From positions 434,001 through 498,000 of the forward strand of contig JAGYIE010000001.1 in NCBI GenBank assembly GCA_018402765.1: 64,000 nt of DNA, written 5' to 3'. The notes under the pieces are model-generated. The model saw only the letters and a program-made list of their open reading frames with translations, ran no database searches and was not told where the DNA came from. The translations under genes and the position numbers were made by a program. The stretch comes from Vicingaceae bacterium. Lineage in GTDB: Bacteria > Bacteroidota > Bacteroidia > Flavobacteriales_E > Vicingaceae. This document shows, one piece after another, positions 3,319-42,074 of the stretch (its first letter is position 1; every line of letters begins with the position of its first letter).

Positions 3319-3600
3319 TTAATGTAATTTTACGCTTAAGCGTTGATTAATCAACGCATTTTTAATTGGTATTAATTTTTCCTTTGGTCCTCTCTTAACT
3401 GCGCACTTACCACTATAATGCACAATGTAAGAACATTGCTCTGCTTGAACAAAATCGTGGCCACAATAATTTACCAAACATTCGATAACATGCTCAAACG
3501 TGTTTACGTCATCGTTATAAAGAACGATTTCATGTAAGTCTCCAAAAGAATGTTCTACTAATTCTGTTAATACTTCTTCTTCTGTCTCTAATATCGACAT
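3319..3600 (-). CDS. clpS: ATP-dependent Clp protease adaptor ClpS
   Basis: ClpS binds the N-domain of the ClpA/ClpC unfoldase and delivers N-end-rule substrates for degradation. The 93-residue product has the conserved LYNDDVNTFEHVIECL segment (substrate pocket and N-terminal strand), then QAEQCSYIVHYSGKCAVKRG, matching the helix and the His-containing strand of the family. The ATG at 3600 sits a few bases after AAAGGAGGT, a full Shine-Dalgarno, which decides the start. The TTG five codons upstream overlaps that sequence and is not used. Strong Shine-Dalgarno sequences are rare in this phylum. It follows the 1,852-residue protein gene by 24 bp. Confidence 0.92.
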   Translation of the reverse strand: MSILETEEEVLTELVEHSFGDLHEIVLYNDDVNTFEHVIECLVNYCGHDFVQAEQCSYIVHYSGKCAVKRGPKEKLIPIKNALINQRLSVKLH

Positions 3601-3603
3601 ATA

Positions 3604-3612
3604 ACCTCCTTT
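3604..3612 (-). promoter_or_regulatory. Strong Shine-Dalgarno of clpS
   Basis: On the minus strand AAAGGAGGT lies 3 bases before the clpS ATG at 3600. It is a near-complete complement of the 16S 3' end. Together with infC it is one of only two such start-adjacent sites I found in the window. Confidence 0.85.
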
Positions 3613-3624
3613 CAAAAAAGTAAT

Positions 3625-6600
3625 CTATTGATTTAATAACGCTAATGCTTTCTCTAAACTAATTTTTATTCCATTATTATAAGCAATCACAAATGCATCA
3701 GGTACTGTTAACTTTATTCTATCTCGGGCAATTGCTGCTTGTACTGGATCATTATAGACTCCTGAACTATAACGGTATAATTTATCTTTAACAACTTTCA
3801 CTGCCAAATCGGGTACATTGATCTCCCCTTTTGTAATTGGCTTGGAATACACTCCGACTTGAACAGTGAAGTAAACACCATCAATCACTTCGATATTTTT
3901 TACAGCAGCAACATTTTCAGCAGCAAACTCTGCAGGTAACCCTGAGCTAGAGGAATTATCACTAGTAACTGCTGTTTCAGGTTTATTAGAATTGGATGAA
4001 GCAGACTGACTCGTCAACGAATTTACCATCGCTTCTACTGCCGGTTTAGAAGGAACATTTTCATCATTCTTTGTTTCTCTAGCTTCACTTACATTAATTC
4101 GTTTACCATCTTTATAAGCGACAACGAAGGCATCTTTATACCCCAATGAACGAATACCCTTTTTCGCTTTATCTGCATTAGCAAAATCCAAGAAAATTCC
4201 TGCAGTGTAACGCGTAATACCTGAAGACACGATTTCTCCCATTAACGGAACAAATCCTTTAAATAAATCTTGAGAAATTGGATTTCTAAAAGCGCCTACT
4301 TGTACTTTGTAGATTATTCCGTCCGGTAATGGAACGTCTAATGGAATAGGGTTACTCTTTGAGTAAACCGACTCGTTAGGAGATAATTGACTAAAAATAC
4401 CTAGATCTGTAGCTTTTAAATTTAATTTATTGCTTGTATTGGTTGAAGTTATTGGTTTCACCTTATTGTCAGGCGAGGTTGAATTTGATAATTTTACTAA
4501 GTCAGCTTTTGAAGAGCCTGAAGTTGAAGTACTGTTCGTTTCATTTATAGACGTTTGTGGTGTTTCATTGGTGTTAACTGCAAGTTGCAGATCACCTATT
4601 TCAAAACTACCTGTAGCCATGCCTGACGAAATAGCACCTGCCATTCTCATTATAGTTGCTTCCTCAGACTTAACACTAGCAAGGGTTTTACTGGCTTCAG
4701 CTTCTTTTTTCTGTGCTAAAAGATTCTTGATTCGAATCATTTTATCCAAAGAAGCTGCTTTCGCTGCATTTTTATCTGCTTTTGCAGTTTCCATTTCTTC
4801 ATACAGAACATTCGCTTCTTTTATCAATTGATTTCGCTGCTTAATTTGATTGGCATACGTTACATAAGCAGGATTCGTCTTAATTGAATTGTATTCTTCT
4901 TCAGTCAAACTAACCTCACCTGCATCAACACCAATTTGATTCAATTGAGTTGCTCCTCTTAGTTTGTTTCTCTCTTTCTTTTCAGCGAAAATAGCTTCTA
5001 AACGTTCTTCTCTTTTCGATTCTATATTTGCAAGTTGGTTCGTTAATTGCGCTCCTCTTCTCTCTAAAATCTCCGCTTGATTTTCTTTGGCATCGCGCTT
5101 CTCAGTAAGTGTTATTATCTCTGCTTCTAATACTTCTCGCTCTGTTTGATTTTTGGTATTTTCTAATTGATTTTGTAATGTTAAAATTTCAGCATCAATA
5201 GTTACCACTTCACTTCTTAAAGATTCCGCCAATTCAGCCTCCCTAGCTGCTAATACGTTATTACCAGCTGGGGCAGTTACATCTGTAAAAGATACTGTTT
5301 CAACTTTTCTAGGTGATACTTTAGCTGTATTTGGATTTTTGTATTCTACAGTTGCTTGATTTAAAGCTACCTTAGCCTCTTGTTGCTTCTTAAGTGCAAT
5401 TATTTCAAAATTATATGCCTTTTGAAGTTTTATGGTTTTCTCTGTAAAACGTTCATTCTCTTCTATAGTAGCACGAATTCTTTGTGCCTCGGCAATATAG
5501 TACGCTGACTCATTAGATAATAAATCCGCTAAATCTAAATTCTTAGATTGAAATTGTTGGCTAAACTTCGGATAGTTGTTGAGTTCATTGTTCTGTTGAA
5601 CATATTGGTATTTATTTGCATCACTATATAATGAGCTCGCTTTAACTTGCATTCTTTCCGATTCCATTTTCAAATCATCTGCGGAAGCCATAGCAGCAGC
5701 ACGTTCAGATGCGGTTGGGAGCGTTAATGCTGCACTTCTTTCGGTCTCATATTGCTCCATTAGTTGCTTTGCAGCTAACTTCTCTTGCTCAGCCGAAACC
5801 AATAATTGTTTTGACGTGTTAGAAGAATAATCAATATCACTAGCATACTTTAAATCTGAGAAATTATCTTCTGACGTACCAATGGGTGCAGTGTAATTAA
5901 TTCCATTAGCTGTGTTTAGATTTGATATTGAATTAGAAGAAGATGCATCAGAGGCATTATCAATGCGCATAGGCAACGTTATCTCTGCGCTAGAAGTAGC
6001 TTTAGTTAAAGTTTCTACTAAATTATTTTCATCTGAAGACAAATTATCTTGCATATCCAACTCAGATGTTGTGCCTGCAACTTCATTTGTTGAACCTTTT
6101 AGACGCGCAATTGCCAAAGAATTTTCTTTAGTTTGCTCCTTTAAAGATGAAAGCTGTTTTGTCGCAGTTTCAGGTGTTCCATTGGTTGCGGTTCTATTTT
6201 CCAGAACTTTAATGTCATTATTAATCGATTCGTTCCAATCTTCATAAATAGCAATTTGAGACTCCAATCGACTAGTTTCATCAGTAATACCATTAGCCTG
6301 TTTTAAATCTATGCGATATCCTTCATTGTAGGGAGGTTCAGGTGTATTTTCATCCGCAGTCGCTGAAACTAGCTCCTCTTCTGAAACAGATACAGATAAC
6401 CGCTGATATTCTTCAGCTACAGAATTCTTTTCTTGTTTTAGTGCTGTTAATTCAGAAATTTTATTTTGAATAAGGTTTTGCTCACTATCACTAACTTTTG
6501 TTTTCAATTGCTCATTCAATCGAATTCGTTGATCAATTGAATTACTCCAATCTCTATTTACTTCAGCTAATTGTAAATTCTTTTCTTCATCAACTTGAAC

Positions 6601-9183
6601 TAAATTTGCTGCTTTTATTCTTTCTTCAAAAAAACCATTGGTTGGCAATTCTGCGAGTTGCTGCTCAATGCTAGATTTACTTAATGCAGGTGCATCAGAT
6701 TCAACAAGAGTTGAAGGCTCATAAAATAAACGATTTGCTGAGAAATAATCTACATTTTCTTTTAGTGTTGACTTCTGATTTACAGGAATATCTGCCAATA
6801 ATGCTTGACTAGCAGGATAATTAGTTTCAAGTTTAGTTATGAAACGTTCCTCAAATTGTAAATCTTGCACCTCACCACTTTTTATAGCAATAGACTGCTT
6901 ATTTTTGGTAATCTCAAAACTTAAATCTTCCTCATCTAGTTTTAAAGCATTTAACCTACTCTCTATTTTAGCAATCTCTTTCTTATTCTTCGTTTCCTGC
7001 AGTGTATTATCTAATGAATTACGCTCATCTTCAAGAACTTTAATTTGTGAAGAAATTGATTTATTTGCATTATCTGCGTTAGCGATTTCTTGCTCGAGAG
7101 CTATTTTCTTGTTGATGATGTTATTTTTTTCTAAAGGAATTACATCATTTGTTGACATTGGAATAATCACATTGCTTTTTAATGTCGCTAGTTCTTTTGT
7201 TGCCTTATCGATATCATCAGCTTGCAGTGATGCATTTATAGAAGCTAATGAATTGTCGACTAAAACTAACTGAGGGACTAGTTCTTCCGACTTTTGTTCA
7301 AATATTTCTGCGTAATTCAAGGCCAATTTTGCTTCAAGAGCTAATTGCTGACCCCGACTATTTGATTCTTCCGCTTTGTCTAATGCGAGAGCTTTAGCAT
7401 CACCGTTTGAAGTTGAAGCTTTCTCTTTTTGGAGCTCTGCCTCTTTAAAAAATGCCAATGCCTCATTACTCTTTTTATATCCTTCTGAAAATGCTAAAGC
7501 AGCGCTCTTACTTGCATCGTCTTTTACGGTGTTTATTATATTTTTTATTGACTCAGCATCTTGGCTTACTTCTGCTACTCTTTTCTCTGCTTGTTCATCT
7601 CTTTGAGTAGAATCAACTTCATCCGTTCTAACCACTTCATTTTTTGCAGTTGCTGTGGCGTCAGCAGGCATTTTAACCTCATTAATTCCTCCCCCACTAA
7701 TTGATCTAATATCTGCTAAAATTTGAGCTTCACTAGCATTTTGATCCATATTTGCTTGACGAGAAAGGATAGCAGCTGAAACTATTGGGCCACCATTATA
7801 ATCGGCCAAATTAACAGAACCATCAAAAATATTTTTAATCACCAACTTTTGGTCATTACCTTCGCCTACCAATCGAAGTTCCTGACCCAGCACTGCAAAT
7901 TCCTCTTGCTTTGGAACAGAAACTATTCCAGCATGAATTGGCGCTTCAGAAGTTGTTTCTATATTAAACTTATACTCTCCACCAGCTCGCTCTACTTCTA
8001 TGGAGTAATTTCCCTTTTCATCAGTTTCATAAACCCCAATTGTTTCGTTCGTTTTCGCATCAACTACGGTTATTTTGGCACGTTTGAGGTTGGGAATACT
8101 TTCTGCAATAAAATTACCTTTAATTACAAATAAATCAGGTTTTTTAGGTTTATTTCCAACTTTATATACAAAGTACTGGTCATCTACATTATTCCGATCA
8201 GAAGCAAAGAATGCGAGAGACTGATCTTCATTTGTAACCAACATTACGTCATCATTTACGGTGGAGAATGGAAAATCAAGGTTAATAGGTGCTGTCCAAT
8301 TCGCTACATTCTCATCGTAGGTTGATTTAAATAAATCATACCCGCCCATAGAGTTATGTCCTTTAGAAGCAAAATACATGGTTCTTCCATCTGGTAAGAT
8401 AAAAGCAAATGCTTCATCAAAAGGAGTATTTATAGAACTCCCAACACTCACTGCTTCACTCCACTTTCCATTTCCAAGCTTTACTGCCTTGTATATATCC
8501 CGTCCATTATCACCATTCTTACCATAAGACGAAAAGTAGACTTCCGAAGCATTATTAGGAAGAAACATAATGGAGTTATCATCATTCTTTTTATCGTACT
8601 TGGTTTTAAATTCATCAGGCTTTACGACCAATTTACCATTTAATCCCTCCAATTCATAAATTCTAAAAAAATCAGATTTAGATACCGACTCTTTAGAAAT
8701 TACATCTAATCGATTAATGGATTTTAGTAATTCATTTCCATTTTTTACCATTTCTATCTGCTGATCAATCTCAAACTCTTTACGTTCAGCAGAAGATGCT
8801 TTCGATTTAAATCGATTGTAATTTTTTAATGCCTTTGTAAACTGATAATTTAAATGAAACCCTTTACCCGCATAAAAAAAAGTTCTGTTATCTACGTTAT
8901 TTTTAGATGTTGCGAATGCTAGGTATTTAAGCGCTTTACTTTTATCCGGATCTGAATACAATAAACATGCTCCATACTTAAAATTGTAATCCGGCTCTTT
9001 GGGATATAAACTTAACAGCTGAGCATATAAAGGTGCTGCTTCAATAAACTTTTTTGCTTCAAATAATTCAGATGCGCTCGTTTTTAGATCCACTTCAGAA
9101 TTTAACGTGCTTTGCCCCTTGGCTGCACTTGAGATTAGTGATGTAATTAGCGTTATTGTAATTACTATATTTTTCAAAGTCAT
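3625..9183 (-). CDS. giant envelope protein: TPR, PD40 beta-propeller, coiled coil and two SPOR-like domains (1,852 aa)
   Basis: A signal peptide (residues 1-23, ending AAKGQ) is followed by TPR-like helices (30-135), then a PD40/WD40-like propeller with blades such as SEVYFSSYGKNGDNGRDIYK and GRTMYFASKGHNSMGGYDLF (about 205-345), and a carboxypeptidase-regulatory-like beta domain (about 350-410). Next come some 1,000 residues of charged, Ala/Glu/Lys-rich coiled coil (about 530-1,550). Two SPOR-like modules end the chain: IIYKVQVGAFRNP at about 1,619 and VYFTVQVGVYSKP at about 1,770, each running to an AFVVAY/AFVIAY strand. TPR-PD40 heads are typical of Bacteroidetes envelope proteins such as PorE of the T9SS, but those end in an OmpA peptidoglycan-binding domain. 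Here SPOR-like modules take that place, suggesting glycan attachment. The exact role is unknown. Confidence 0.8.
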   Translation of the reverse strand: MTLKNIVITITLITSLISSAAKGQSTLNSEVDLKTSASELFEAKKFIEAAPLYAQLLSLYPKEPDYNFKYGACLLYSDPDKSKALKYLAFATSKNNVDNRTFFYAGKGFHLNYQFTKALKNYNRFKSKASSAERKEFEIDQQIEMVKNGNELLKSINRLDVISKESVSKSDFFRIYELEGLNGKLVVKPDEFKTKYDKKNDDNSIMFLPNNASEVYFSSYGKNGDNGRDIYKAVKLGNGKWSEAVSVGSSINTPFDEAFAFILPDGRTMYFASKGHNSMGGYDLFKSTYDENVANWTAPINLDFPFSTVNDDVMLVTNEDQSLAFFASDRNNVDDQYFVYKVGNKPKKPDLFVIKGNFIAESIPNLKRAKITVVDAKTNETIGVYETDEKGNYSIEVERAGGEYKFNIETTSEAPIHAGIVSVPKQEEFAVLGQELRLVGEGNDQKLVIKNIFDGSVNLADYNGGPIVSAAILSRQANMDQNASEAQILADIRSISGGGINEVKMPADATATAKNEVVRTDEVDSTQRDEQAEKRVAEVSQDAESIKNIINTVKDDASKSAALAFSEGYKKSNEALAFFKEAELQKEKASTSNGDAKALALDKAEESNSRGQQLALEAKLALNYAEIFEQKSEELVPQLVLVDNSLASINASLQADDIDKATKELATLKSNVIIPMSTNDVIPLEKNNIINKKIALEQEIANADNANKSISSQIKVLEDERNSLDNTLQETKNKKEIAKIESRLNALKLDEEDLSFEITKNKQSIAIKSGEVQDLQFEERFITKLETNYPASQALLADIPVNQKSTLKENVDYFSANRLFYEPSTLVESDAPALSKSSIEQQLAELPTNGFFEERIKAANLVQVDEEKNLQLAEVNRDWSNSIDQRIRLNEQLKTKVSDSEQNLIQNKISELTALKQEKNSVAEEYQRLSVSVSEEELVSATADENTPEPPYNEGYRIDLKQANGITDETSRLESQIAIYEDWNESINNDIKVLENRTATNGTPETATKQLSSLKEQTKENSLAIARLKGSTNEVAGTTSELDMQDNLSSDENNLVETLTKATSSAEITLPMRIDNASDASSSNSISNLNTANGINYTAPIGTSEDNFSDLKYASDIDYSSNTSKQLLVSAEQEKLAAKQLMEQYETERSAALTLPTASERAAAMASADDLKMESERMQVKASSLYSDANKYQYVQQNNELNNYPKFSQQFQSKNLDLADLLSNESAYYIAEAQRIRATIEENERFTEKTIKLQKAYNFEIIALKKQQEAKVALNQATVEYKNPNTAKVSPRKVETVSFTDVTAPAGNNVLAAREAELAESLRSEVVTIDAEILTLQNQLENTKNQTEREVLEAEIITLTEKRDAKENQAEILERRGAQLTNQLANIESKREERLEAIFAEKKERNKLRGATQLNQIGVDAGEVSLTEEEYNSIKTNPAYVTYANQIKQRNQLIKEANVLYEEMETAKADKNAAKAASLDKMIRIKNLLAQKKEAEASKTLASVKSEEATIMRMAGAISSGMATGSFEIGDLQLAVNTNETPQTSINETNSTSTSGSSKADLVKLSNSTSPDNKVKPITSTNTSNKLNLKATDLGIFSQLSPNESVYSKSNPIPLDVPLPDGIIYKVQVGAFRNPISQDLFKGFVPLMGEIVSSGITRYTAGIFLDFANADKAKKGIRSLGYKDAFVVAYKDGKRINVSEARETKNDENVPSKPAVEAMVNSLTSQSASSNSNKPETAVTSDNSSSSGLPAEFAAENVAAVKNIEVIDGVYFTVQVGVYSKPITKGEINVPDLAVKVVKDKLYRYSSGVYNDPVQAAIARDRIKLTVPDAFVIAYNNGIKISLEKALALLNQ

Positions 9184-30808: not shown

Positions 30809-30818
30809 TATCTTTGCA
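30809..30818 (+). promoter_or_regulatory. Probable -7 element of the thrS operon
   Basis: TATCTTTGCA, an exact TAnnTTTG with the CA extension, 29 bp before the thrS ATG. It gives a short leader with no room for a T-box or L20 leader structure. No clear -33 TTG. Confidence 0.5.
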
Positions 30819-30846
30819 CGCTTTAATTAAAGAATATACTTTTCTC

Positions 30847-32772
30847 ATGATACATATAACACTCCCAGATGGTGCAATCAAATCATATGAAACTCCGGTT
30901 TCAGCTTTAGATATCGCCAAAGAAATTAGTGAAGGTTTAGCACGTAATGTACTTGCTGCCAAAGTTAATGGAGAGGTAATCGATGCCTTTCGACTTATAA
31001 AAGAAGATAGTGACCTATCATTACTAACATGGAATAACGAAGAAGGCAAAAATACCATGTGGCATAGCTCTGCACACCTATTAGCAGAGGCATTAGAAGA
31101 AATTTACCCCGGTATAAAATTAGGCATTGGACCACCCATTGAAAATGGGTTTTATTATGATGTAGATGCAGGTGATCGAGTAATTACAACAGAAGATTTA
31201 CCAGTTATAGAAAAAAGGATGCTCGAGTTAGCTCGTGAAAAAAAAGAGTACGTTCGAAAAGCTATTTCAAAAGCTGATGCTATAGCTTTCTACAAAGAAA
31301 AAGGTGACGAATATAAATTGGATCTATTAGAAAATCTAGAAGATGGAAACATCACATTCTATACTCAAGGTAATTTTACAGATTTATGTCGCGGTCCTCA
31401 CATTCCAAATACCGGTTTTATAAAAGCCGTTAAATTGCTCAATATTGCTGGAGCTTATTGGAGAGGAGACGAAAAAAACAAACAGCTTACGCGTATTTAT
31501 GGAATTACATTTCCTAAGCAAAAGGAATTAACCGAATACCTTGAATTACTAGAAGAAGCAAAAAAACGAGACCATAGAAAGCTAGGTAAAGAATTAGAAT
31601 TATTTACATTTAGTCAGCGAGTAGGTCAAGGGTTGCCTTTATGGTTACCAAAGGGTGCTATGTTGCGAGAGCGATTAGAGAACTTTATGAGAAAAGCTCA
31701 GGTGAAAGCAGGATATCTTCCTGTAATTACACCACATATAGGAAACAAAGAGTTATATATTACCTCAGGGCATTATGAAAAATATGGTGCTGATTCATTT
31801 CAGCCGATTAGCACTCCTGCAGAAGGTGAAGAATTTTTGTTAAAACCAATGAACTGCCCTCACCACTGCGAGATTTATAAAGCATCTCCAAAGTCATATA
31901 AAGATTTACCGGTACGTTATGCAGAGTTTGGAACAGTTTATCGATATGAGCAAAGTGGGGAGTTACATGGATTAACTCGAGTAAGAGGTTTTACTCAAGA
32001 TGATGCCCACCTATTCTGTCGACCAGACCAAGTAGAAGATGAATTCATGAAAGTAATCGACTTGGTATTGTATGTTTTTAAGGCATTAGACTTTAAAGAT
32101 TACACTGCACAGATTTCTCTTCGAGATAAAGTAGACCGAAGTAAATATATTGGTACTGATGAAAATTGGGATAAAGCGGAGCAATCGATAATCAAAGCAG
32201 CTAAGGAAAAAGGGCTGAATACAGTGGTCGAATACGGTGAAGCAGCCTTCTACGGTCCGAAGCTTGATTTTATGGTAAAAGATGCATTGGGCAGGAAGTG
32301 GCAATTGGGAACAATCCAAGTAGACTACAATTTACCTGAGCGCTTTGAATTGGAATATACAGGAAGTGATAATGAGAAACATAGACCTGTAATGATTCAC
32401 CGAGCACCCTTTGGTTCATTAGAACGATTCGTTGCTTTATTGATTGAGCATTGCGGTGGTAATTTCCCGCTTTGGTTAGCTCCGGAACAATTAGCAATAT
32501 TGCCATTGAGTGAAAAGTTCAACGAAAATGCAAAAGAGGTTTTAAATGTCTTAAATAATTACGATATTCGCGGTTTCGTAGACGATAGAAACGAAAAAGT
32601 TGGTAAAAAGATACGAGATGCAGAAGTCTCTAAGGTTCCCTACATGTTAGTAGTAGGTGAGAAAGAGATAGAAAATGGTACAGTTTCTGTAAGAAAACAC
32701 GGAGAAGGTGATATTGGAACGATGAAAATCGACGCTTTTGCAAATTATTTTAATAAAGAATTACAAATTTAA
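30847..32772 (+). CDS. thrS: threonyl-tRNA synthetase
   Basis: Charges tRNA-Thr and edits mis-charged Ser. The 641-residue protein has an N-terminal TGS domain (1-62), an editing domain with [13 protein letters not shown] and CRGPHI, then the class II core: motif 2 in [20 protein letters not shown] and motif 3 in [13 protein letters not shown]. The zinc-binding Cys ([10 protein letters not shown]) and His (DDAHLF, IHRAP) residues are present, and an anticodon-binding domain forms the C-terminus. The start is the ATG at 30847 ([10 protein letters not shown]); an upstream in-frame ATG at 30814 overlaps the -7 promoter element and is rejected. It is the first gene of the thrS-infC-rpmI-rplT operon. 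Confidence 0.97.
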
Positions 32773-32773
32773 T

Positions 32774-32780
32774 AAGGAGG
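32774..32780 (+). promoter_or_regulatory. Strong Shine-Dalgarno of infC, deciding a non-canonical start
   Basis: AAGGAGG directly follows the thrS stop and lies 8 bases before the ATA proposed as the infC start. No ATG, GTG or TTG is in frame near it. Confidence 0.8.
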
Positions 32781-32788
32781 ACCAAACA

Positions 32789-33343
32789 ATAGCTAGGCCA
32801 TTTAAACCACAAGGTAGATTTGCACAAACGAAGAACCCTCATCGTATAAACGATGAGATAACATCACCAAAAGTAAGAGTTGTTGGAGATGGTGTAGATG
32901 CAGACGTATATCCAATTAGAGAAGCACTAAGCATGGCTGAAGCGCAAAGCTTAGACCTTGTTGAGATTTCACCAAAAGCTGAGCCGCCCGTATGTAAGAT
33001 AATCGATTACAAGAAATTCTTATACGAGCAGAAGAAGCGTCAAAAAGAAATGAAATCAAAGGCTTCAAAAATTGAAGTAAAGGAAATTCGATTCGGCCCC
33101 AATACTGATGATCATGATTTTAATTTCAAGTTAAAACATGCTGAGAAGTTTATTGGAGAAGGAAATAAAGTTAAGGCTTATGTTTTCTTTAAAGGACGTT
33201 CAATTTTATTTAAAGATAAAGGAGAAATTCTATTATTAAAGCTAGCACAAGCTTTAGAAGAAATAGCAGTAGTAGAATCAATGCCAAAGCTAGAAGGAAA
33301 AAGAATGATAATGTTCTTAGCTCCTAAAAAGAAAAGTAAATAA
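32789..33343 (+). CDS. infC: translation initiation factor IF-3, probable ATA start
   Basis: IF-3 binds the 30S subunit, prevents premature 50S joining and checks the initiator codon. The 184-residue product has the N-domain ([18 protein letters not shown], then [20 protein letters not shown]), a linker rich in Lys/Glu and the C-domain ([20 protein letters not shown]). No ATG, GTG or TTG exists between the thrS stop and this conserved start region; the first internal ATG (near 32934) would delete half the N-domain. The codon 8 bases after AAGGAGG is ATA. Non-canonical AUU starts in infC are known in E. coli, where they give autoregulation by IF-3. A TTG inside thrS (32738) is unlikely. Confidence 0.9.
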
Positions 33344-36608: not shown

Positions 36609-39600
36609 CTATTTTATTATAAACTTCTTTACGACAGTTTGACTATCTCCTGTTATTCTAACAGTATACAATCCTTTCTCTAAACGACTATTATTAATAA
36701 AAATACGTTCAGTTGAATTCGCTTTTGGAGACACTTGTTGTAAAACTAAACGTCCCTCTATGTCATAAATAGAAATTAAACGATCGATATTAAATAACTG
36801 TCCAAATGCAATAATCATCTCATCTACTACAGGATTTGGATAAATCAAAATAGCCTCTTCTTTTACTTTTGATGAAATTCCTGTATTTACGTCATATGTC
36901 ACAATTGCCGTATCCACTGAAGGGCAATTTGTTGAACTAAATGCAATAACTGAAATTGTATCAGTCATACCAGCTTTTGCAGGATCGTAATTCACTGTAA
37001 GTGTTCTATTTGTAGAGTTATCTTGCCACAAATATCTAGTAAAACCAGGTCTTGCAGTATAAGTCACTGAAGTGTTATTTATAGCATTTAGTAAAGCATC
37101 GGCTCCAATATTTAATGCGATACCAGTGCTAACTGTTACATTAACTGAAGCCGACACAAAACATGATGTACCACTGAATGATCGCACAATAAATGAAGTC
37201 GTATTCACAGGAGATACACGAATACTCGATGTTGTTTCTGAAGTATTCCATAAATAATTATTTGTTGCACTATTTGCTGATAATTGAATAGTATCTCCTA
37301 AACAAATAGTTGTGTCATTAGAAACTGTTAAAGTTGGTCGTATGACAACTGAAACGTTAACAGTATCTATTGATGAACAATTAGAAGTATTACTTACGGT
37401 TACGTAATATTTAGTATTGGAAGTTGGTGTAACTGAGATTGATGCTGTAGTTGCAGATGTACTCCACAAATAGCTACTTCCTCCTACCGCTGTTAATGTA
37501 ATTGAGCTTCCATCACAAATTGAGGTATCAGGCGTAAGTGTTATACTTGGCAATGGATTTACTGTAATTGTACTTGAATCTCTTGATGAACATCCAATTC
37601 CATCGGTGTAATCATAGTAAATTTTAAATGTCCCTACTCCACTGACTGATGGATTAAATTGAGTTCCTGTTACCCCAATTCCTGAATAGGTTCCTCCAAT
37701 TGGTGTTCCTCCACTTAATGTAATCGAAGGACTGCCTTCACAAATATCCGAAAAGCTACCCAACGAAACTGTTGGTGCAGGATTTACAGTTACTAATTGA
37801 GCTGCTGAGGCTGTACACCCATTTGCATCTGTTATGGTAACTGAATAAGTTGTTGAAACAATTGGAGACACTGTAATACCGGCTGTTGTTGAAGCATTGC
37901 TCCATAAATAACTAGTTCCACCATTTGCGGTTAAAGTGGTGGAAGTTCCTTCACAAATTAGATTGGTTCCTGTAATACTTGCTGTAGGGGCAGGATTTAC
38001 TGCCACCATAACACTGTCGACACTTGAGCAGTTTCCACTTCCTGTTACGGTTACATAATATTTAGTTGTTGTTAATGGAGTTACAACTATTGATGCTGTA
38101 GTTGCTGAAGTACTCCATAAATAGCTACTTCCTCCTACCGCTGTTAATGCAATTGAGCTTCCATCACAAATTGAGGTATCAGGCGTAAGTGTTATACTTG
38201 GCAATGGATTTACTGTAATTGTACTTGAATCTCTTGATGAACATCCAATTCCATCGGTGTAATCATAGTAAATTTTAAATGTCCCTACTCCACTGACTGA
38301 TGGATTAAATTGAGTTCCTGTTACCCCAATTCCTGAATAGGTTCCTCCAATTGGTGTTCCTCCACTTAATGTAATCGAAGGACTGCCTTCACAAATATCC
38401 GAAAAGCTACCCAACGAAACTGTTGGTGCAGGATTTACAGTTACTAATTGAGCTGCTGAGGCTGTACACCCATTTGCATCTGTTATGGTAACTGAATAAG
38501 TTGTTGAAACAATTGGAGACACTGTAATACCGGCTGTTGTTGAAGCATTGCTCCATAAATAACTAGTTCCACCATTTGCGGTTAAAGTGGTGGAAGTTCC
38601 TTCACAAATTAGATTGGTTCCTGTAATACTTGCTGTAGGGGCAGGATTTACTGCCACCATAACACTGTCGACACTTGAGCAGTTTCCACTTCCTGTTACG
38701 GTTACATAATATTTAGTTGTTGTTAATGGAGTTACAACTATTGATGCTGTAGTTGCTGAAGTACTCCATAAATAGCTACTTCCTCCTACCGCTGTTAATG
38801 CAATTGAGCTTCCATCACAAATTGAGGTATCAGGCGTAAGTGTTATACTTGGCAATGGATTTACTGTAATTGTACTTGAATCTCTTGATGAACATCCAAT
38901 TCCATCGGTGTAATCATAGTAAATTTTAAATGTCCCTACTCCACTGACTGATGGATTAAATTGAGTTCCTGTTACCCCAATTCCTGAATAGGTTCCTCCA
39001 ATTGGTGTTCCTCCACTTAATGTAATCGAAGGACTGCCTTCACAAATATCCGAAAAGCTACCCAACGAAACTGTTGGTGCAGGATTTACAGTTACTAATT
39101 GAGCTGCTGAGGCTGTACACCCATTTGCATCTGTTATGGTAACTGAATAAGTTGTTGAAACAATTGGAGACACTGTAATACCGGCTGTTGTTGAAGCATT
39201 GCTCCATAAATAACTAGTTCCACCATTTGCGGTTAAAGTGGTGGAAGTTCCTTCACAAATTAGATTGGTTCCTGTAATACTTGCTGTAGGGGCAGGATTT
39301 ACTGCCACCATAACACTGTCGACACTTGAGCAGTTTCCACTTCCTGTTACGGTTACATAATATTTAGTTGTTGTTAATGGAGTTACAACTATTGATGCTG
39401 TAGTTGCTGAAGTACTCCATAAATAGCTACTTCCTCCTACCGCTGTTAATGCAATTGAGCTTCCATCACAAATTGAGGTATCAGGCGTAAGTGTTATACT
39501 TGGCAATGGATTTACTGTAATTGTACTTGAATCTCTTGATGAACATCCAATTCCATCGGTGTAATCATAGTAAATTTTAAATGTCCCTACTCCACTGACT

Positions 39601-42074
39601 GATGGATTAAATTGAGTTCCTGTTACCCCAATTCCTGAATAGGTTCCTCCAATTGGTGTTCCTCCACTTAATGTAATCGAAGGACTGCCTTCACAAATAT
39701 CCGAAAAGCTACCCAACGAAACTGTTGGTGCAGGATTTACAGTTACTAATTGAGCTGCTGTATCACTTCCACATTGATTAGTAACGATATAGCGTATGGT
39801 AAATGTACCAGCTCCCGAAGAATTTGGATCAAATACACCATTTACAACTCCTACACCTTGATAAATTCCACCAAGTGGAGAACCTTCGATTAATGTATAA
39901 GAAGAACTATTTGAGCAAAATACAGGTACCGCGGTTAGCGCAGCTGTTTGAATTGTATCGACAATAATAGTTCTCTCACTGAAAGCTGAACAACCGTTAC
40001 CATCAGTAAAAGTGTAACGAATTACATGTGGTCCGCCACCTGCAACGGATGGACTAAATTGATTTCCTGTAACACCATTTCCTGAAAATACTCCCCCGAA
40101 TGGAAATGCATTAGTTAAGGTAATTGGTGCCGATGTAATACAAACATTGGAAAGAGGTGCAAAGAAAATACTTGGAGCTGGTTTAACATAAATAAATGCG
40201 AATGCTGAGTCTGCACACCCACCATTAGAAAAGGTATAAGTAACTCTTTGTCTTCCAATTCCTGCAAGAGCAGGATCAAATTGATTGTTAACCACTCCAA
40301 TTCCTGAATAATTTCCACCTAATGGCAAACCTCCTGAAAGTGTAAAGGCAAGATCAGATTGGCACACAGTATCAGGGAGGGTAAGTGTTACTGTTGGAGG
40401 TGTTCCTACAGTGACTGTAACAACTCGAGAAGTATCTATACACCCAGCTCCATTTACAATAATTTGATAATTACCTGATGAATTTGTTACAATATCTCTA
40501 AATATCTCACCAGCAAGAATAGAATTATTGTTTATCCATTGGAATGTAGAAGCTGAAGAAGGAGTAGCTACTATTCTAACAGATTGACCTGCGCATAAGT
40601 TTGTATCTCCTACAAAAGATAAAGGAATAGGAGATGTGCCGCATTCTGTCATTTTTATTAAAATAGTAGTACTAGCATTACTCAAGCCTGAAAAGAAAGT
40701 AGAACCAAATTGAGCCAAACCGTTAAATGTGCCTAATATATAAGCGCTAGGGCTATTATACGAAGCAACAGAAAGTCCATAATCAAAGTTACCACCTCCA
40801 CCTGTTTGAAACCAATTCACTTCCAATTGATTATCAAGGTTTAGAATCATTATGTCATTACTTCCATTGGTATATCTCTTAATTCCATTATACTCGACAC
40901 TATCTGTGTAGTTTCCAACAATTATTATCTCACCTTTTGAAGTTTCAACGATATCATTCAGGTTGTTTCCTGTTATATCAAAACCCTTTAACTTAATCAA
41001 GTTCCCTGATGGATTAATTCTCGCTGCATAATAATAGTTATCAAAAGAACTAGCTGAGGTATTTGGTGTAATTGATTGTCCTTGAATAATCATAGAACTT
41101 CGGTATATTCCTGAAACAACTACATCACCATTAGAACAAAGCGCTAACTGAGGAGAAAAAATAGTAGAGGTAAAAGAAGCTGTAGTAGTTGAAAAGGTTG
41201 CCCAATCACAATTAGTACCTGAAAATTTTGCAACTACTACAGACGTTTGTGGACTCGCATTTACCGCACGGTTATTCGAACCAAAGGTGTATGTATTTCT
41301 AAATGAACCACTAAAAATATAATCAGTATTGTTGATCCCTTTAATATCACCAATTGTAGAAGACGTACCTGTAGTTGTATTAGCAATTTTGTTCAGTGAG
41401 AGTACATTTCCGGCTAGATCTAGTCGACCAACGTAAACGTTATTGAAGAAGGGAGAAGAATTCTGTACTAACTGGATCGTTGATCCTTGAATTTGAATTG
41501 TTCTTGTAAGTTGGCCAGTAAAAAATAACGTACTATCGGCTACAGATATTTTATTTAAATCATTGAAGCCAAAAGTACCTGTAGGGGAATACAGCCCTTT
41601 AATCCATTGGGTAACACCCTGAGGATTGAGTTTAACAATAAACCCTTCTCTAGAAAAAGAACTAGTACCTGTGCCTGATGCATTAAGAGTTATTGTTCCC
41701 CAATTAGTGGTTTGAGTAAACTGTCCTGTTATGTAAAGATTACCATACTGATCTATTTCAAAGTCTCTAAAAAGTTCTGCATTAAAATTAGATCCCCCTT
41801 TTATGGCCCATCTAAAGTTTCCTAATGTATCATAATTCGCAATATATATACTCGTTATCGAACCTGAAGAAGTTAACACGGTAGATCCAAAACTAACTGA
41901 ACCCCTAAACTCTCCAACTGTGTAAACATTGTTTTCAAAAACTTTAGTTGCCTGATTTTGATTGGTAAAACTAGAGCTAGAGTAAAGCTCCATCCATTCG
42001 TAACGCTGTGAATACGAATATTCTGACATAATCATTAACAGCAGAAATAACAACGAACTTGTAATTGTTTTCAT
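36609..42074 (-). CDS. giant T9SS-secreted surface protein with exact tandem repeats (1,821 aa)
   Basis: A signal peptide (about 1-22, ending SYSQ) leads into SBBP-type propeller repeats (about 30-480; for example VYTVGEFRGSVSFGS and LYITGQFTQTTNWGT). Ig-like/PKD-type modules then fill most of the chain, each with a short phrase such as DICEGSPSITLSGG, DTSICDGSSIALTAVGG or TNLICEGTSTTLTANGG. Residues about 773-1,545 consist of 3.5 copies of a 217-residue unit of three such modules. The last 80 residues are a type A T9SS sorting domain (LIYPNPVVDEMIIAF ... LEKGLYTVRITGD ... KKFIIK), so the protein should be exported by the T9SS and attached to the surface. A role in adhesion is likely but inferred. 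Confidence 0.9.
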   Translation of the reverse strand: MKTITSSLLFLLLMIMSEYSYSQRYEWMELYSSSSFTNQNQATKVFENNVYTVGEFRGSVSFGSTVLTSSGSITSIYIANYDTLGNFRWAIKGGSNFNAELFRDFEIDQYGNLYITGQFTQTTNWGTITLNASGTGTSSFSREGFIVKLNPQGVTQWIKGLYSPTGTFGFNDLNKISVADSTLFFTGQLTRTIQIQGSTIQLVQNSSPFFNNVYVGRLDLAGNVLSLNKIANTTTGTSSTIGDIKGINNTDYIFSGSFRNTYTFGSNNRAVNASPQTSVVVAKFSGTNCDWATFSTTTASFTSTIFSPQLALCSNGDVVVSGIYRSSMIIQGQSITPNTSASSFDNYYYAARINPSGNLIKLKGFDITGNNLNDIVETSKGEIIIVGNYTDSVEYNGIKRYTNGSNDIMILNLDNQLEVNWFQTGGGGNFDYGLSVASYNSPSAYILGTFNGLAQFGSTFFSGLSNASTTILIKMTECGTSPIPLSFVGDTNLCAGQSVRIVATPSSASTFQWINNNSILAGEIFRDIVTNSSGNYQIIVNGAGCIDTSRVVTVTVGTPPTVTLTLPDTVCQSDLAFTLSGGLPLGGNYSGIGVVNNQFDPALAGIGRQRVTYTFSNGGCADSAFAFIYVKPAPSIFFAPLSNVCITSAPITLTNAFPFGGVFSGNGVTGNQFSPSVAGGGPHVIRYTFTDGNGCSAFSERTIIVDTIQTAALTAVPVFCSNSSSYTLIEGSPLGGIYQGVGVVNGVFDPNSSGAGTFTIRYIVTNQCGSDTAAQLVTVNPAPTVSLGSFSDICEGSPSITLSGGTPIGGTYSGIGVTGTQFNPSVSGVGTFKIYYDYTDGIGCSSRDSSTITVNPLPSITLTPDTSICDGSSIALTAVGGSSYLWSTSATTASIVVTPLTTTKYYVTVTGSGNCSSVDSVMVAVNPAPTASITGTNLICEGTSTTLTANGGTSYLWSNASTTAGITVSPIVSTTYSVTITDANGCTASAAQLVTVNPAPTVSLGSFSDICEGSPSITLSGGTPIGGTYSGIGVTGTQFNPSVSGVGTFKIYYDYTDGIGCSSRDSSTITVNPLPSITLTPDTSICDGSSIALTAVGGSSYLWSTSATTASIVVTPLTTTKYYVTVTGSGNCSSVDSVMVAVNPAPTASITGTNLICEGTSTTLTANGGTSYLWSNASTTAGITVSPIVSTTYSVTITDANGCTASAAQLVTVNPAPTVSLGSFSDICEGSPSITLSGGTPIGGTYSGIGVTGTQFNPSVSGVGTFKIYYDYTDGIGCSSRDSSTITVNPLPSITLTPDTSICDGSSIALTAVGGSSYLWSTSATTASIVVTPLTTTKYYVTVTGSGNCSSVDSVMVAVNPAPTASITGTNLICEGTSTTLTANGGTSYLWSNASTTAGITVSPIVSTTYSVTITDANGCTASAAQLVTVNPAPTVSLGSFSDICEGSPSITLSGGTPIGGTYSGIGVTGTQFNPSVSGVGTFKIYYDYTDGIGCSSRDSSTITVNPLPSITLTPDTSICDGSSITLTAVGGSSYLWSTSATTASISVTPTSNTKYYVTVSNTSNCSSIDTVNVSVVIRPTLTVSNDTTICLGDTIQLSANSATNNYLWNTSETTSSIRVSPVNTTSFIVRSFSGTSCFVSASVNVTVSTGIALNIGADALLNAINNTSVTYTARPGFTRYLWQDNSTNRTLTVNYDPAKAGMTDTISVIAFSSTNCPSVDTAIVTYDVNTGISSKVKEEAILIYPNPVVDEMIIAFGQLFNIDRLISIYDIEGRLVLQQVSPKANSTERIFINNSRLEKGLYTVRITGDSQTVVKKFIIK
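37441..39759. repeat. 3.5 copies of a 651-bp tandem repeat inside the T9SS protein gene
   Basis: The period is exactly 651 bp (217 codons), measured from the same 9-base word at 37801, 38452, 39103 and 39754. The copies I compared by eye look identical over most of their length. The low-coordinate copy (37441-37500) carries a few substitutions, and the array stops sharply at about 39760. Each unit encodes three Ig/PKD-like modules of about 84, 71 and 62 residues. Confidence 0.93.

Follow-up and report, generated by a model that had tools for sequence, protein, structure and literature searches.

The DNA analysed here is a single stretch of 64,000 nucleotides (the window), and coordinates below are positions in it unless another contig is named. 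The gene clpS occupies positions 3319..3600 of the minus strand and encodes 93 aa from its ATG codon, and its product is recognized as ClpS by Pfam (PF02617, 58.6 bits, cut-off 23). Upstream of it on the same strand lies a gene for an 1852-aa protein with PD40 and SPOR domain matches (3625..9183), with its stop codon 24 nt ahead of the ATG of clpS. The gap between these two genes holds the sequence GAAAGGAGGT (3604..3613, minus strand), which is complementary to the 3' tail of the genome's own 16S rRNA and is separated from the ATG by a spacer of 3 bases when counted from GGAGGT or 4 when counted from GGAGG. The strong Shine-Dalgarno site that an earlier note on this DNA had reported three bases before the clpS ATG is present as claimed: AAAGGAGGT runs from 3612 to 3604 on the minus strand, the three bases TAT follow, and the ATG is at 3600..3598, the start region as a whole reading TTTTTTGAAAGGAGGTTAT-ATG.

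Pairing of the clpS start region with 16S rRNA

The 16S 3' end is ...GGAACACCTCCTTTTT in all three copies found in the genome (we infer the exact mature end), so GAAAGGAGGU can form a predicted helix with it of nine Watson-Crick pairs and one G-U pair, for which our nearest-neighbour script predicts -13.4 kcal/mol. The tail was read in the window genome only, and this tail was used for the ranking of window starts, the chance fits, the Markov null and the energies of named genes given below; with a generic 16S tail the same clpS site scores -16.8. When the 45 gene starts of the window are ranked by pairing, clpS is first, infC second (-9.4) and the third reaches only -5.4, and the earlier note was thus right that, infC aside, no other gene start in the window carries a strong site. 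The clpS site is predicted to be unpaired and so could be used. The clpS start has no A at -3 or -6, positions at which 48% and 42% of sampled starts, respectively, have one, and the Shine-Dalgarno site could replace these missing bases.

The program-made open reading frame of clpS begins at an in-frame TTG at 3615, and if translation began there AAAGGAGGT would be coding sequence, read as K-G-G. We consider this very improbable: the TTG start adds five codons only, a congener has its ATG aligned with that of clpS here (query residue 6), and its reading frame contains a stop three codons ahead of that congener ATG.

A separate feature of the window is AGCGGTAGGAGGAAGTAGCTATTT, which recurs four times on the minus strand, at about 39438, 38787, 38136 and 37485, evenly 651 bases apart. 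These copies lie inside an 1821-aa frame (36609..42074) and form a long in-frame repeat (37485-39438).

Strong sites in the genome and the level expected by chance

The strength of the clpS site looks unusual for the 64-kb window alone, and its predicted -13.4 lies below -13 kcal/mol, the mark described by McNutt et al. (PMC9976891) as characteristic of rpsU, a comparison that is approximate because our own script is not their program, free_scan. Four patterns were counted over the whole 3.1-Mb genome and in controls, as follows: AGGAGGN{3,10}ATG occurs 142 times versus 152 in the reversed control; AAGGAGGTN{2,9}DTG (AAGGAGGT before ATG, GTG or TTG) 39 versus 62; AAAGGAGGN{2,10}DTG (AAAGGAGG before ATG, GTG or TTG) 54 versus 41; and AAAGGAGGNNNNATG (AAAGGAGG exactly four bases before ATG) 4 versus 2. 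The last two counts exceed their controls, and over the four patterns there is no consistent genome-wide excess of strong motifs before start codons; in particular, scoring AGGAGG before ATG, as the earlier note had proposed, brings out none. The exact 14-base string AAGGAGGTTATATG recurs within an open frame of 654 codons.

Only the two 8-base patterns (AAAGGAGG and, at 35 of its 39 sites, AAGGAGGT) were traced to gene starts, and 30 AGGAGG matches, taken from the first 100 of the 142, were inspected as loci. An open frame of at least 30 codons follows in 28 of the 88 distinct motif-plus-start contexts among the loci examined, and most of these 28 frames lie inside longer in-frame frames or opposite genes. 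Inspection of the matches to the two 8-base patterns left three believable strong starts, namely clpS and two loci that we call L283 and L296, the latter a gene of 194 aa with no Pfam match and a pairing of -10.35. L025, a frame of 45 aa, is doubtful as a gene start, and L185 and L292 are inside longer frames that could in principle start at the motif. So few real starts among the contexts with a motif led us to reject the idea that strong sites form a genome-wide class. Many other genes with sites as strong, which the earlier note had named as one ground for refutation, did not emerge either: by the two 8-base patterns very few real starts have such a site. L283 (G000:C10, ATG near 341037, minus strand) is a gene for a 441-aa ABC-2 transporter with AAAAAGGAGG six bases before its ATG and a pairing of -12.2, second only to clpS among the real starts that the patterns brought up.

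How strong a site chance alone would supply was estimated from a 400-kb sample of 322 genes, in which the start was taken as the most upstream ATG of frames of at least 100 codons. Strong pairings are rarer at these 322 starts than in mock windows 25-45 bases upstream (for example, 51 versus 77 at -2 or better). According to exponential fits to the 322 genes, the best value that chance would yield among 2,700 genes is -13.2 when start windows are fitted and -13.9 when mock windows are, and interpolation from these fits gives about 1.3 genes of clpS strength expected genome-wide. A Markov null gives fewer: per 2,500 genes, 0.09 are expected to pair at -13.4 or better when upstream composition is simulated, and 0.38 with mock composition. 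One gene as strong as clpS is near what chance supplies over the whole genome (0.09 to about 1.3 expected) and is not clearly unusual, and pure chance is somewhat strained because the Markov null with upstream composition expects just 0.09 genes.

The clpS site and its gene context in relatives

Matches to clpS were found in 85 of 100 genomes searched, the window's own included, and 70 of these 85 loci were read. GGAGG precedes a possible clpS start in one of the 70 whole-genome loci, that of the window genome itself. It is absent from the one congener with a clpS match, in which the spacers are alignable; the other congener, 69% complete, has no clpS match. Among the best 80 of 572 named clpS loci, the nearest of which are by title mostly from Flavobacteriales and other Bacteroidia (46-65% identity), none has GGAGG before the true start; in one locus it does stand ahead of GTG codons in the frame, at a place overlapping the in-frame coding stretch ATG-GAG-GAA. 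From the titles of these nearest loci we place the window in the class Bacteroidia. The site is missing from 69 of 70 loci, congener included, and loss in most relatives is an outcome that the earlier note had itself named as refuting its idea. The proposal that clpS belongs to a small regulon of genes read by exposed anti-Shine-Dalgarno sequences is thus unsupported for this gene, and in the loci compared clpS shows no membership of a conserved regulon.

The gene order around clpS is old. Of the 70 loci, 34 besides that of the window have a homologue of the 1852-aa gene upstream of clpS (many loci include 400 nt of flank only), and where the match reaches the C-terminus of the upstream protein the gap to the first in-frame ATG is -4 to 61 nt in 26 of 27 other loci. 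Given this old gene order and gaps that mostly do not exceed a few tens of bases, co-translation of clpS and the upstream gene is probable in relatives that have no Shine-Dalgarno site. From this one might argue that the site in the window species helps ribosomes that terminate on the upstream gene to restart at clpS and thereby offsets a start without A-rich context, and the tight 24-nt spacing of this old gene pair and the missing A at -3 and -6 are in keeping with such termination-reinitiation. Relatives with the same tight upstream gap, however, have no GGAGG, and we consider this explanation unlikely.

In Bacteroidota the 16S tail is described as sequestered by the ribosomal proteins bS21, bS18 and bS6, and an extended Shine-Dalgarno site has been reported for rpsU (McNutt et al. 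2023, PMC9976891). A further reading of the window is that clpS in this one species is a target of ribosomes that lack bS21 and expose their anti-Shine-Dalgarno sequence, so that ClpS would rise when bS21 is short, through a site like the extended rpsU site of Flavobacterium. With nine Watson-Crick pairs and one G-U, and a site predicted to be accessible, clpS outranks every other real start that these patterns brought up, and rpsU of the same genome has only AAAAAGGA (-6.4). The distance from GGAGG to the start is 4 bases in clpS, as against 8-13 in rpsU (8 genes) and 5-9 in infC (40 genes), and the strength of the clpS site is near the chance maximum. The site is also absent from the 69 other whole-genome loci read, and we know of no physiological link of ClpS to bS21 shortage. 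We rate this reading as improbable, slightly more so than the reinitiation just discussed.

The clpS site is probably a fortuitous motif of one species. It would be a Shine-Dalgarno-like sequence within the 24 nt that separate clpS from its upstream neighbour, and it may give at most modest aid to initiation in that species. A joint explanation, in which the clpS site is fortuitous and species-specific and the site of infC is conserved and bound up with feedback by IF3, is the one that we favour and regard as reasonably probable.

The conserved site of infC and its relation to rpsU

The gene in the window that has a conserved Shine-Dalgarno site is infC, not clpS. It lies on the plus strand after thrS (30814..32772), and AAGGAGG (32774..32780) follows directly after the thrS stop, with a spacer of 8 bases to an ATA codon at which infC begins (32789..33343, ATA GCT AGG CCA). 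Its product, IF3, has an IF3_N match, ahead of which there is no in-frame ATG. The conserved infC start is this ATA (32789), not the TTG at 32738. That TTG, inside the end of thrS, is where an open reading frame list limited to ATG, GTG and TTG puts the start (window 32738-32789). Annotated genomes of other Bacteroidia may share this error, and surveys of Shine-Dalgarno sites could then overlook infC.

For the 90 genomes in which IF3_N was matched, the infC start was assigned by a fixed rule blind to the Shine-Dalgarno site, and several of the starts without a site are probably misplaced by this rule. AUA, AUC or AUU (AUH) starts were assigned in 65 of the 90. GGAGG precedes infC in 40 of the 90 genomes, which are spread over 16 of 46 families; mock windows contain it in 0 of 90. 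All 40 sites, 5-9 bases before the start, belong to the 65 AUH starts, of which 25 are without GGAGG, and none belongs to the 25 UUG, AUG or GTG starts. The association holds outside the window's family, where GGAGG is found at 16 of 36 AUH starts versus 0 of 16 others (Fisher p = 0.0009, uncorrected for relatedness), and among the first 34 genomes scored from the window's family the site is absent from all 7 with a UUG start; the order, as searched, consists of one family (32 genomes of at least 90% completeness). The spacing clusters at 8 bases (24 genomes) and 5 bases (10 genomes) among the 40. From these counts the recurring combination of a poor start codon and a Shine-Dalgarno site at infC, among bacteria that reportedly avoid these sites, looks real.

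The earlier note had also proposed to test whether rpsU forms a conserved set with clpS and infC. GGAGG is found before rpsU in 8 of 91 genomes, 1 of 40 in the window's family and 7 of 51 others, and in the 85 genomes where both infC and rpsU could be scored it precedes infC alone in 33, rpsU alone in 4, both in 4 and neither in 44. Because the rpsU and infC sites rarely co-occur (4 of 85) and rpsU has one in only 1 of 40 genomes of the family, and with clpS at 1 of 70, we rejected the three genes as one conserved set. The notion that a few genes of Bacteroidia keep functional Shine-Dalgarno sites gains support from infC, whose site recurs beyond the family and is tied to AUH starts; clpS drops out. 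In the window genome rpsR has no site (-2.6), and bS21 keeps a tyrosine at position 54 (own count).

By analogy with known infC genes, the conserved site is most likely part of IF3 autoregulation. IF3 would reject the poor AUA, AUC or AUU start codon, so that efficient translation of infC would be confined to conditions of IF3 shortage, and pairing with the rRNA would supply the initiation strength that the start codon lacks. Further, infC may be a widespread Shine-Dalgarno-dependent gene of Bacteroidia, in addition to rpsU and the few ribosomal genes reported before, with an AUH start that makes initiation need an exposed 16S tail, so that the supply of IF3 would respond to how much IF3 is present and also to what fraction of ribosomes have their anti-Shine-Dalgarno sequence free; this we offer tentatively and would stop short of calling probable. 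Genome-wide scans could have missed infC because AUA starts are seldom annotated.

Comparison with known systems

McNutt et al. (PMC9976891) suggest that rpsU is the only gene of Flavobacteriales under Shine-Dalgarno control; for other Bacteroidia they list sites at rpsR and some further ribosomal genes. A word search of the main text of that paper finds no mention of infC or clpS, and our literature search, which covered mostly titles and the beginnings of abstracts, with subscription literature mostly outside it, found no report of Shine-Dalgarno sites at either gene in Bacteroidota. On the comparative evidence clpS no longer ranks as a candidate for sensing the anti-Shine-Dalgarno sequence and infC becomes one, and a recurring site before an infC start that is easily mis-annotated would widen the picture given by McNutt et al. 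(PMC9976891). The clpS site resembles that of rpsU of Flavobacteriales as described there (PMC9976891) in that it pairs with the 16S tail over a long stretch although the lineage otherwise avoids such sites, and in an energy near the published threshold; it differs in that it precedes another gene, in one genome, with a spacing of 4 and not 8-13, is not clearly beyond the best value expected by chance, and stands in a genome whose own rpsU has AAAAAGGA (-6.4).

The infC gene of Escherichia coli starts at AUU and is autoregulated through this non-AUG codon. That of Staphylococcus aureus is reported to start at AUA (PMC13009471). The infC of the window is like these in having a non-AUG start (AUA) behind a Shine-Dalgarno site, after thrS, and differs from them in its host, a member of the Bacteroidia, in which the anti-Shine-Dalgarno sequence is reportedly sequestered and genes are mostly without such sites.
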